From assembly GCA_035937135.1 (NCBI GenBank), contig DASYVL010000138.1, positions 1-41,724 of the forward strand: 41,724 nt of DNA. Reading direction: 5' to 3'. Source of the stretch: Terriglobales bacterium (GTDB lineage Bacteria > Acidobacteriota > Terriglobia > Terriglobales > Acidobacteriaceae). Positions 1 through 21,525 of the stretch are shown here, piece after piece. A model generated the notes under the pieces. It saw only the letters and a list, made by a program, of their open reading frames with translations. It was not told the DNA's origin and ran no database searches. Positions within the stretch are counted from its first letter, which is position 1. Each line of letters begins with the position of its first letter. The position numbers were made by a program, and so were the translations under genes.

Positions 1-391
1 GTTTCTCGTCGGCTTCCTTCCCGCCCTTTTCTCCCTTGGCTTCCTTTGCTTCGACCTCCGGGCTTTCCTTGACCCAGGTACCCGTCAGTTTGACCTTGTG
101 CCCGACGTGCGTCTTCAGGTCGTTCATGCCAACCACCTCCATGCCGCTGCGGTGGTTCCCATTCTTCACAAGGTACTCGCCGTCGGCGTTGGGGCCGCTG
201 AGGCATCCGGTCATGGTGGATTCCTTGGGGCCCGCTGCGGCGGCCTTAGTGTGGGTGGTGCTTTTCGTGGTGGAGGCTGTGGACGTCTTTGCGGGTGTCG
301 AAGCCTTGGTCGAGGATCCATACGATCCCTGGTACGCCCAGGCGGCGACCGCAAACATCAGGACAAAAACCAGTACTGTGACCTTCTTCAT
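1..391 (-). CDS. Secreted OB-fold-like small protein (DUF5818-like), 3' end outside window
   Basis: The gene reads leftward from ATG at 389-391 and runs off the window edge after about 130 codons, so its C-terminus is missing. A good ribosome site (AGGAGAG) lies 5 nt before the ATG. The product starts with a signal peptide (MKKVTVLVFVLMFAVAAWA), followed by a Ser/Thr/Lys-rich linker of about 40 residues. Next comes a small domain with the pattern TGCLSGPN...GEYLVKNG...GMNDLKTHVGHKVKLTGTW, and then a charged Glu/Lys tail. A secreted 'TGCL...GHKVxLTG' domain resembles the DUF5818-type OB-like domains common in Acidobacteriota. That family name is from memory and unverified. Function is unknown; export to the periplasm or surface is the only firm inference. 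Confidence 0.7.
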   Translation of the reverse strand, partial: MKKVTVLVFVLMFAVAAWAYQGSYGSSTKASTPAKTSTASTTKSTTHTKAAAAGPKESTMTGCLSGPNADGEYLVKNGNHRSGMEVVGMNDLKTHVGHKVKLTGTWVKESPEVEAKEAKGEKGGKEADEK

Positions 392-18753: not shown

Positions 18754-19515
18754 ATGCGTCCGCTCGTCCGCCTGTTGCTTTGTCTTTTTACATTCGCTGC
18801 CTTCAGCGCGCGCCCGTTGCGCGCCCACGACAGTGAGCCCATCAACACCGAATTCGCTGCTCCGTTCACCTATAAAGCCGGCAACCTGCAATTTGGCCTG
18901 CGGTACGCCCACAACCTGCGTTCTTACGATGTAGCAAGCTTCGAATTCGAGTACGGCGTCTGGCAGCGCATGCAGTTCTCCATCAGCGCGCCGCTTACCC
19001 GCACCGACGCTTCGGGTAAGACCTACGTGCGGCCCGGCAACGTCGAGATCGCCTACCGCTATCTGCTGGCGGGCGGAAACGAGCGCCGCTTCGCCCTCTC
19101 CATCAACCCCGAGGTCACGCTGCCGGTGGGCGACAAGCGGGTGGCGGAGCGCGCCTTCGCGGTGGGCGGCGCGCTCCACCTCGACCTCCATCCGAGCGAC
19201 CGCCTCTGGACCCATCTGAACCTTGGCTACGAAACGCCCATCGCCCGCTTTGAGGAGAAAGAAAAAGTCTTCTTCTACCGGGCCGCCGCCATGTACCACG
19301 CCAGCGAGCGCTTCCAGCCGGTGCTGGAACTGGTGGGCGAGCACGGTTTCCACGACGGCTCCACCCGGCTGGCGGTGGTTCCGGAGCTGATCTTTTCTCC
19401 CAGCCACCGCTGGGAGATCAAGGCGGGGATGCCGCTGGGGGCGACCCGTGCCACCCCTGACGTGGGCTTCCAGTTTCAGTTAACATGGAAGTTCGGTCGG
19501 GAGGGGCGGCAGTGA
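18754..19515 (+). CDS. Outer-membrane beta-barrel protein (MetA-pathway transporter-like)
   Basis: The product has 253 residues; GGGAGG lies 6 nt before the ATG. The signal peptide ends near residue 24 (LRAHDSEP). The mature chain alternates polar and hydrophobic residues in beta-barrel style (NLQFGLRYAHNLRSYDVASFEFEYGVWQRMQFSISAPLTR, RFALSINPEVTLPVGD, LWTHLNLGYETPIARF, RWEIKAGMPLGAT). It ends in an amphipathic strand with aromatic residues (VGFQFQLTWKFG). It resembles the 'phenol MetA pathway' porin-like family, but the substrate is unknown. It lies between the His/Cys-rich gene and a DsbA-like gene, probably in one transcript that ends at the 20212 terminator. Confidence 0.75.
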   Translation: MRPLVRLLLCLFTFAAFSARPLRAHDSEPINTEFAAPFTYKAGNLQFGLRYAHNLRSYDVASFEFEYGVWQRMQFSISAPLTRTDASGKTYVRPGNVEIAYRYLLAGGNERRFALSINPEVTLPVGDKRVAERAFAVGGALHLDLHPSDRLWTHLNLGYETPIARFEEKEKVFFYRAAAMYHASERFQPVLELVGEHGFHDGSTRLAVVPELIFSPSHRWEIKAGMPLGATRATPDVGFQFQLTWKFGREGRQ

Positions 19516-19547
19516 CCCGTCTCCCGGCCGATCAGCGAGGTCCAGCC

Positions 19548-20195
19548 ATGATTTCCCACAAATCGAGTTTTCTGTTGCTTCTATTCCTGCTGGGGACGGC
19601 GCTCACGGCGCAGGTGGCGAGCCAGCGCGCGCTGCGTCCGCCGCCCGGCGCTTCGGTCGCGCTGGTGGTCTTCGAAGACCTGGAGTGCCCGGACTGCAAG
19701 CGCGCCGCGCCGCTGTTGGAAGAGGCCGCCCGCGCCTACAAGATCCCCCTGGTGCGCCACGACTTCCCCCTGCCCAAGCACAACTGGTCGTTCGACGCCG
19801 CCGTGCTGGCGCGCTTTTTCGACACCAAGTCCAAGAAGACCGGGGACGAATTCCGCGCCTACATCTTCCAGAACCAGGAGCAGATCACGCGCGAGACCCT
19901 GCGGCCGTACGCCGAGCGGTTCGCCTCCGACCGCAAGGTGGACCTGCCCTTCGCCGTCGATCCCCGGGGCGAGCTGGCCAAGAAGGTGAAGGCGGACTAC
20001 GCGCTGGGCCAGGCCATCAACATCCAGCACACCCCGACCATCTACGTGGTGAGCAACAAGGAGAGCGGCACGCCGTTCGTGGAAGTGGTGGACCGCACCA
20101 ACCTCTACGCCATGATCGACAAGATGAAGCGCGAGGCGGTCCCGGTCTCGGCCAGCGCTACCAAGAGCACCAAGAAGTCGGCCACGCCCCAGTAA
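19548..20195 (+). CDS. Secreted DsbA-like thioredoxin-fold protein
   Basis: The product has 215 residues. ATG at 19548 is chosen over an in-frame ATG at 19485 because a signal peptide starts there and AGCGAGG lies 8 nt upstream. The signal is residues 1-22. The thioredoxin fold follows, with active site C47-P-D-C50 (VFEDLECPDCKRAAP) and the cis-Pro loop (IQHTPTIYVV). It matches the Thioredoxin_4/DsbA-like family that reduces, oxidises or isomerises periplasmic disulfides. The Lys/Ser/Thr-rich C-terminus is disordered. It is the last gene before a strong terminator. Confidence 0.88.
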   Translation: MISHKSSFLLLLFLLGTALTAQVASQRALRPPPGASVALVVFEDLECPDCKRAAPLLEEAARAYKIPLVRHDFPLPKHNWSFDAAVLARFFDTKSKKTGDEFRAYIFQNQEQITRETLRPYAERFASDRKVDLPFAVDPRGELAKKVKADYALGQAINIQHTPTIYVVSNKESGTPFVEVVDRTNLYAMIDKMKREAVPVSASATKSTKKSATPQ

Positions 20196-20255: not shown

Positions 20256-20741
20256 CTACAGTTTGCGCAGGACTGCGAGACAGTCCTCATTGGGCGGTTG
20301 CTCGCCCAGCTCGTACAGCTTGCTGAAGGCGATCTTGCCGGCTTTGTTCACGATGAAGACAGCGCGCTGGTTGATGCCGGGGATGGGGTCGCCCTCGCGG
20401 AAGACGCCGTATTTCTTCGCCGTCTCGCCGTGGGGATAGAAGTCGCTGCACAACGGGTAGCGCAGCGGACCGATATCATGCTTCTGCCAGGCGATGTGGC
20501 TGAAGACCGAATCCACGCTCACGCCCACGACCTGGGCGTTGAAGCCGGCGAACTTGTCGAGGTCCGTGTTGTACGCCGGCATTTGCGCGCTTCAGGTGGG
20601 GGTCCAGTTGAGAGCGTAGAAGGCCACCACCACGTGCTTTTTGCCGCGGAAATCGGAGAGCTTGAACTTGTGCTTCTCCGTCCCGGTCACGGCCGGCAAC
20701 TCGAAATCCGGAGCCACCTGGCCGACTGCGAGGATCGCCAT
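20256..20741 (-). CDS. Peroxiredoxin with in-frame TGA at the peroxidatic cysteine (selenoprotein candidate)
   Basis: Reading through one TGA (20592-20594, codon 50) gives a complete 161-residue AhpC/TSA-family peroxiredoxin. The N-terminal half is [20 protein letters not shown] through [22 protein letters not shown] follows, then [72 protein letters not shown] and a normal C-terminus. In homologues this position is the active-site Cys of the TPxC motif, so the natural reading is selenocysteine (TPTU). Both halves are in frame with no other lesion. A GGGGGGAAG site precedes the ATG. The only Cys residues are in PLCSDF and EDCLAV, so resolution may use thioredoxin or a 1-Cys mechanism. It reduces peroxides in the cytosol and is divergent from a Dps-like ferritin. 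A point mutation or assembly error is the alternative. Confidence 0.85.
20544..20594 (-). promoter_or_regulatory. Candidate bacterial SECIS hairpin after the TGA codon
   Basis: In the mRNA, 11 nt after UGA a perfect 7-bp stem GCCGGCG / CGCCGGC forms (arms 20574-20580 and 20544-20550). Inside it, AAC/GUU pairs next to a 3-nt bulge, and a small CG/CG-closed loop GACCU begins about 27 nt after the UGA. Bacterial SECIS elements lie within coding sequence just downstream of UGA, with a G early in the apical loop, so distance and shape fit. Folding was done by eye. Confidence 0.6.
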
Positions 20742-20855
20742 CTTTCTCTTCCCCCCTCAAAAAATTGCCGCCTCAGCAGTCCGTACCGCCGAGGCGCGTG
20801 GCATCAGTGTAGCACTCGGAACCTGCGCTTCCAGCGCGCCGCCCAGAGGCTCATT

Positions 20856-20958: not shown

Positions 20959-21525
20959 ATGGGAAAGGTAGCACGGGAAGTTGTGGTCAAGGCCGGCGTC
21001 AACGTGGACGAGCTGCTGAAGAAGCTGGTGCGCGCGGCCTCGGCTGAATTCACGACGTATTACTACTACACCATCCTGCGGGTGAACGCGATCGGCTTCG
21101 ATGGCGAAGGATTGAAGGAGATCATCGAGGACGCGCGCATCGAAGACCGCAACCACTTCGAGGCGCTGACCCCGCGCATCTACGAGCTGGGCGGCAAGCT
21201 GACGCGCGACATCAAGGACTTCTGCGCCGAGGCGGCCTGTCCGGATGCCTACCTGGCCAAGAATCCCAAGGACATGAAGCAGATGCTGAAGATCCTGGTG
21301 GGCGCCGAGCGCTGCGCCATCCGGGTGTACACCGAGATCTGCCAGATGACCCAGGGCAAGGACCACCGCACCTACGATCTGGCGCTGGCCATCCTGCACG
21401 AAGAGATCGAGCACGAGGCGTGGTTCAGCGAGTACCTGGGCGAAGGGCCGAGCGGACACTTCCGCCGCGGCACGCCGGGCGAGTCTCCCTACACCTCAAG
21501 GTTCCTGACGGTGCCCAAGAAGTAG
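20959..21525 (+). CDS. Dps-like ferritin (DPSL/thioferritin type)
   Basis: The product has 188 residues with a GAAGGAG site. It is a four-helix ferritin-like protein with iron ligands placed as in the bacterioferritin-type site: E30 (AEFTTYYYY), E62-x3-H66 (IEDRNHF), E117 (GAERC), E149-x2-H152 ([10 protein letters not shown]). Cys residues at 89, 94, 119 and 128 recall the archaeal/bacterial DPSL 'thioferritins', which carry a Cys pair near the di-iron site. Such proteins use peroxide to oxidise and store iron, and protect DNA. The divergent peroxiredoxin, with its candidate Sec residue, and the nearby Rieske protein support a peroxide-defence role. The exact disulfide partners are inference. 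Confidence 0.85.

Follow-up and report, generated by a model that had tools for sequence, protein, structure and literature searches.

A putative two-hairpin SECIS element with a distal candidate SelB-binding hairpin in a peroxiredoxin gene of Acidobacteriota

The window analysed here is a stretch of 41,724 nucleotides from a Terriglobales bacterium (contig DASYVL010000138.1 of assembly GCA_035937135.1) and carries a peroxiredoxin gene with an in-frame UGA (Table 1). The product scores 114.2 bits against the Pfam AhpC-TSA model, for which the gathering score is 26. It has the family and the T-P-T-U active site of the TxxU-type selenoprotein peroxiredoxins, as given for the TxxU entry in the accessible part of the review PMC13188914, and differs in scoring 73.7 bits against the NCBIfam PrxU equivalog NF040737, below the curated cut-off of 270. 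On the plus strand, the open reading frame at 19485-20195 looks like a thioredoxin-fold protein with a CPDC motif and that at 20959-21525 like a ferritin-like protein; our impression, drawn from the list of open reading frames only, is thus of a redox neighbourhood.

Table 1. The peroxiredoxin gene, its in-frame UGA and the predicted RNA elements in the window
Feature	Position from UGA	Window coordinates	Strand	Basis
Predicted selenoprotein peroxiredoxin gene (AhpC/TSA), 161 aa, WTPT-U-SAQM		20256..20741	minus	TGA read as Sec, PF00578, orthologues
In-frame UGA, predicted selenocysteine, residue 50	+1..3	20592..20594	minus	Cys at this position in most non-UGA homologues
P1a 5' arm, GCCGGCG	+15..21	20574..20580	minus	Folding and orthologue covariation
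P1a 3' arm, CGCCGGC	+45..51	20544..20550	minus	Folding and orthologue covariation
P1b apical helix, loop 31-35 GACCU	27-30/36-39	20556..20568	minus	Orthologue covariation
P2 hairpin, ACGCCCA-GGUCG-UGGGCGU, proposed SelB-binding SECIS hairpin	+56..74	20521..20539	minus	Conservation, covariation, losses
P2 apical loop GGUCG, A-U closed		20528..20532	minus	G64-U65 invariant in 102/102 distinct rows

Homologues were taken from 25 loci and from a search of 399 genomes of the class (loci and best-scoring places), and 115 of them align over the codon, which is TGA in 60, Cys in 51, Ser (AGC) in 3 and another codon in 1. The genome itself encodes SelA (560 bits), SelB (379 bits) and SelD (371 bits), the last with one in-frame TGA, and its SelB aligns lengthwise with that of E. 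coli, including the C-terminal winged helix. Because selA, selB and a UGA-containing selD are present, the UGA of the peroxiredoxin gene is very likely a selenocysteine codon. The selD gene (L017 1399-2451, minus strand, contig C180) carries a canonical near hairpin.

The assembly yielded no complete tRNA-Sec gene; its best Rfam match is a serine tRNA. Contig C145 holds the 5' 43 nt of a tRNA-Sec, 95% identical to that of a relative; this 5' half includes the UCA anticodon and is followed by unrelated sequence (L243 360-402, minus strand). The 3' half was not found in the assembly, since a search allowing 3 mismatches gave 6 matches against 14 for a reversed control pattern. The halved gene may reflect an assembly break, an insertion or a disrupted gene. 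A tRNA-Sec with the anticodon UCA is present in all 20 of the relatives' loci that were fetched.

A first-pass annotation of this DNA had described, as a SECIS-like element, a perfect 7-bp stem, GCCGGCG/CGCCGGC, from 11 nt past the UGA, with a G-starting apical loop about 27 nt away. Both details hold on the minus strand, where exactly 11 nt intervene before the stem (P1a) and the loop GACCU starts 27 nt after the UGA. Just two of the four pairs of the apical helix P1b form in the window sequence itself. The folding that the annotation had suggested does yield the hairpin, at -20.1 kcal/mol, but this single-sequence result for the P1 region is not significant (z of -1.47, with 21 of 200 dinucleotide shuffles as good), and the opposite strand folds alike because GCCGGC is palindromic. 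Single-sequence folding was thus rejected as proof of P1. Synonymous recodings of the window match the seven P1a pairs alone in 11% of cases. Over the 84 nt from the UGA, a span that includes P2, the RNA is unusually stable relative to 2000 synonymous recodings (z of -2.85, p of 0.0035).

We compared the structure between homologues with UGA and with Cys. Numbering starts at the UGA (+1 to +3, window 20594-20592, minus strand), and the tested structure comprises P1a (15-21/45-51), P1b (27-30/36-39) and P2 (56-62/68-74). Alignment A1 holds the 60 UGA rows, which are gap-free over 84 nt counted from the UGA, and alignment A2 the 33 of the 51 Cys rows that come from genomes of the same class. In A1, 83.1% of the cells are paired, compared with 33-48% for slid versions of the structure; 111 cells carry double changes against a shuffled mean of 48.6, a count reached in none of 500 shuffles, and the covariation score is 0.235 against 0.03-0.145 for the slid versions. 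The paired fraction in A2 is 50.8%. RNAalifold with RIBOSUM scoring recovers P1 and P2 from the UGA rows (-39.7) and next to no structure from the Cys rows (-0.5). A second alignment-folding method finds six P2 pairs only, and no P1, in the UGA rows, and no structure in the Cys rows. The stability of the 84 nt relative to synonymous recodings has a median z of -1.92 in the UGA rows, with 41/60 below -1.5, and of -0.20 in the Cys rows, with 7/51 below that value.

The compensatory changes for which the first-pass annotation had proposed to search are present in P1 among the 60 UGA orthologues, 59 of them distinct. P1a is paired in 77.7% of cells there and in 40.7% of those of the 33 Cys orthologues, and P1b in 69.1% and 37.9%, respectively. 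Double changes are found at pair 21-45 (GC 29, AU 15) and at pair 30-36 (GC 21, CG 10, AU 8). Equally strong pairing in Cys orthologues, which the annotation had named as evidence against its stem, was not observed, P1 not being kept there. The stem thus stands as part of an RNA structure tied to the UGA. The extent assigned to the element, 20544-20594, proved incomplete, as a second hairpin at 20539-20521 had gone unmentioned.

This second hairpin, P2, is far more conserved than P1. Its pairs form in 96.6% of cells in the 60 UGA rows versus 68.4% in the 33 Cys rows. At the third-codon positions 60, 63, 69 and 72 the commonest base reaches 100, 97, 100 and 93% of the 60 UGA rows, compared with 57, 57, 45 and 73% of the 51 Cys rows. 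Pair 57-73, which is UA in 31 and CG in 22 of 59 UGA rows, ranks first in mutual information among the scanned columns that are compatible with pairing; the high-scoring pairs 5-108 and 49-109 fall outside the model and look like clade signal.

On the tree, the UGA label of the Prx-U family requires 9 changes, at least 7 of them forced by starred branches. Six Cys groups and one Ser group, 19 rows together, are nested among the UGA rows. All seven P2 pairs are retained in 1/19 of these nested rows and six in 4/19, the corresponding numbers for the UGA rows being 46/60 and 14/60. Thus compared, P1 and P2 are maintained when the codon is UGA and decay when it is Cys or Ser. Presence of SelA was tried as a means of telling UGA from Cys genomes and fails, 46/52 of the former and 26/28 of the latter being above the cut-off. 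Since the Cys genomes mostly retain SelA, the loss of P2 in Cys rows is not simply a loss of the machinery. Some Cys homologues do match the covariance model of the element (G307 at 1.8e-12, G337 at 2.4e-10 and G120 at 3.1e-8). The peroxiredoxin paralogues L101, L109 and L126, which have an AGC (Ser) codon in place of Sec, form one clade, and their genomes also have a UGA copy. Three of the 51 Cys rows (L046-L048) contain a TGA three codons upstream and are likely selenoproteins of the form F(M/I)-U-PYC in Anaerolineae.

We ran a covariance model of the element (R1) over 80 genomes. The first 24 extra elements read, from 19 loci, all have TGA at model position 1 and belong to another peroxiredoxin family, of secreted type, with FTGG-U or a similar motif, of which the genome studied here has one element (G000:C169:23338-23421). 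The alignment of this family has 70 rows, 64 with TGA and 6 with Cys; three loci yielded no row. Its UGA rows fall into two clades that group together in the tree, B with 19 rows and C with 43. In type B, P2 is complete in 19/19, with A58-U72 where the Prx-U family mostly has G58-C72, while P1 is found in another register (21-27/43-49) and is 97% paired. Covariation within a set of 23 type-B-like rows is weak because these are near-invariant, the compensation lying between families. In type C a near hairpin, GGCG-UAUC-AGGCU-GAUA-U-CGCC, spans +18..39, with at least 7 of 8 near pairs in 35/40 rows and a complete P2 core (4/4) in 2/40; this count of 40 excludes L259, L270 and L271, which share a 6-nt insertion, and L268 and L275, which belong to another family. 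The P2 core is 4/4 in 51/59 Prx-U and 19/19 type B rows, none of which has 7 or more of the 8 near-hairpin pairs. Judged from these alignments, P2 and the canonical near hairpin replace each other between sister clades.

Several other observations were made among these loci. Secreted-type selenoprotein peroxiredoxins occur in tandem pairs about 500-700 nt apart (L229-L233, L240, L250, L251, L255, L260, L262, L264, L265 and L267), with near hairpins that have a bulged U and an AGG loop. L268 and L275, from two genomes, are likely selenoproteins with DTPG-U (PrxQ-like), and L283 likely one with W-U-PYC.

In the published model of bacterial SECIS elements (bSECIS), 16-37 nt separate the UGA from the apical loop, and a subset of genes misfits (accessible part of PMC13188914). 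We scanned the rows for hairpins following the published rule, with a contiguous stem of at least 4 bp and a loop of 3-9 nt whose first or second base is G. At 16-37 nt, a G[G/U] loop was found in 10/59 Prx-U, 0/19 type B, 40/43 type C, 30/30 selD and 7/51 Cys rows, and one at 50-70 nt in 56/59, 19/19, 25/43, 0/30 and 29/51, respectively. Far hairpins with any G loop and an energy of -5 or below are present in 52/59 Prx-U and 19/19 type B rows, versus 11/43 type C and 11/51 Cys rows. The near stems of type C are bulged and reach this energy in just 3/43 by the contiguous-stem scan. The published spacing holds for each of the 30 selD rows read.

Across the phylum, R1 matched 54/396 genomes at E <= 1e-5. 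The 25 new loci among the 65 matches listed have TGA at position 1 in 25/25 and a complete P2 core in 24/25. A natural one-codon deletion in L304 (1501-1581) places an intact P2 3 nt nearer the UGA and offers a case of spacing tolerance. By eye, L291, L295, L303, L306 and L311 have a small near hairpin at 17-20/25-28 (CCUC/GAGG or CUUC/GAAG) with a non-conserved loop and an intact P2.

The 60 Prx-U rows, 19 type B rows and 24 phylum rows were pooled, leaving out L304, which gave 102 distinct UGA rows. Pair 58-72 is GC in 62, AT in 35, GT in 4 and GG in 1; 57-73 is CG in 48 and TA in 44; 59-71 is CG in 94 and TA in 1; and 61-69 is CG in 101 and GC in 1 (L293, with Glu and Phe codons in place of those for Gln and Leu/Val/Met). 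Base 60 is C in 102/102, and bases 63-65 are GGU in 96, AGU in 5 and CGU in 1. In 35 of the 103 pooled rows, a subset picked for spread, P2 is 97.6% paired against 20-43% in slid controls. Collecting the secreted and phylum rows with the covariance model favours P2; the 60 Prx-U rows were collected by protein similarity and so form the unbiased set. Since the amino acids encoded at the P2 apex (Gln-Val-hydrophobic) constrain part of its sequence, the invariance of G64-U65 does not count as independent evidence, which comes from the synonymous and paired positions of P2 alone.

Taken together, the gene probably encodes a Sec-peroxiredoxin whose UGA would be recoded by a two-hairpin SECIS element within the coding region, with P2 as the putative SelB site and P1 as a spacer. 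P2 is likely the SelB site by prediction. P2 keeps its position and its A-GGU..U apex across the families compared, while P1 shifts register. The C-terminal winged helix of SelB would grip the GGU apex of P2, where G64-U65 may be the counterpart of E. coli G23-U24, and P1 would fold away the intervening bases and bring P2 within reach of SelB on the ribosome. The distance from the UGA to the P2 loop is 59-60 nt without folding of P1; with a closed P1 omitted, the path shortens to 22 nt in this gene (11+4+7) and to 30 nt in type B (17+6+7). These values fall within 16-37 nt, and we thus propose P1 as a spacer hairpin.

The first-pass annotation had cast P1 itself as the SECIS, and P1 could bind SelB at canonical spacing with P2 as an accessory that slows the ribosome or protects the mRNA, for instance. 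We regard this as unlikely, although P1 covaries, is lost in Cys orthologues and starts 11 nt after the UGA as does the upper hairpin of E. coli (accessible part of PMC8659212). G31, the first loop base, lies 27 nt from the UGA, within 16-37 nt, and the loop is G-first in most Prx-U rows, in agreement with what the published model sets for loop position. However, that loop varies among orthologues and is mostly of the GA- rather than the GG/GU-type, the G loop sits on two pairs in the window instead of a contiguous upper stem of at least 4 bp, and the rule scan finds no near hairpin there. P1 is thus better viewed as a SECIS part or spacer than as the SelB-binding hairpin. Furthermore, its register differs in the secreted family while P2 stays, and P2 is mostly gone where a good near hairpin exists, which would not be required of an accessory element. 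Both hairpins might also form one compact tertiary fold, read by SelB as a composite, in which GACCU (31-35) kisses AGGUC (62-66). The two segments are complementary in the window and their pairs form in 80% of cells over 59 rows, yet they show no compensation, with 2 double-change cells and with the paired percentage reached by 109/500 shuffles; P1 loops vary against a constant P2 loop, and P1 differs in the secreted family. This kissing interaction was rejected as complementary without covariation, and the composite fold as a whole seems improbable.

It is very hard to reconcile the data with pairings that merely mirror a conserved protein and GC-rich codons, with no function of the RNA. P2 and P1 do lie partly on conserved codons, the single-sequence folding is unremarkable and about 11% of synonymous recodings reach the pair counts of P1a or P2 individually, but synonymous positions are fixed in the UGA rows only, compensatory changes exceed the slid and shuffled controls, and the stability relative to synonymous recodings separates UGA from Cys rows. 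A sequencing error, a pseudogene or another suppressor reading of the UGA would account for the incomplete tRNA-Sec of this assembly and is just as improbable, given that TGA is kept in 60/115 aligned homologues from many genomes, that relatives have a UCA-anticodon tRNA-Sec and that selA, selB and selD are present, selD itself requiring UGA decoding. The reading with P2 as putative SelB site and P1 as spacer is therefore preferred. More broadly, it is fairly likely that several peroxiredoxin-type selenoproteins of Acidobacteriota use a second bacterial SECIS class, with a putative SelB hairpin about 60 nt after the UGA, a spacer hairpin in between and interchangeability with a near hairpin.

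Rfam gave no match at E <= 10 over 20400-20800 and only a tRNA-Gln across the window. A literature search, to which subscription literature was mostly outside scope, found no far or two-hairpin bacterial SECIS in the accessible texts. According to the accessible part of PMC12013277, a tool built on the published SECIS model misses at least 13% of genes in one benchmark; a defined far element might lie behind one class of missed selenoprotein genes, and its covariance model, with the phylum matches above, is a means to find them. It also makes testable whether SelB needs a fixed distance along the mRNA or a fixed spatial distance that an intervening hairpin can set.

The loop of the SelB-binding hairpin of E. 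coli is AGGUCU, with which A62-G63-G64-U65 of P2 lines up, with the variable base 63 falling on G22. That hairpin spans +15..31, and U17, G23 and U24 are important in it, as stated in the accessible part of PMC8659212. The near hairpins of type C and selD, presumably read by the same SelB, have AGG.. or GU.. loops at canonical spacing after the UGA (mostly 23 nt in type C, 19-20 nt in selD), with P2 absent or degenerate. With the canonical bSECIS of the E. coli fdhF type, P2 shares the in-frame upstream UGA, predicted to encode Sec in a genome with SelA, SelB and SelD, and a hairpin in the coding region with a small A-U-closed loop having G and then G/U (GGUCG, within 3-9 nt) on a stem of 7 bp (at least 4 and up to 16 bp in the model), whose stability of -11.6 kcal/mol is below -7.5 as in the model. 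P2 differs in its contiguous stem, which lacks a bulged U like U17 of E. coli, in the second conserved hairpin that intervenes and in a loop 59-60 nt from the UGA (59 nt here) rather than 16-37 nt (accessible part of PMC13188914). Because of this spacing P2 was not classed as a canonical bSECIS, which does not lower the working assignment as SECIS-like. By these comparisons, the element is predicted to belong to a known kind of SECIS and to be new in its spacing.
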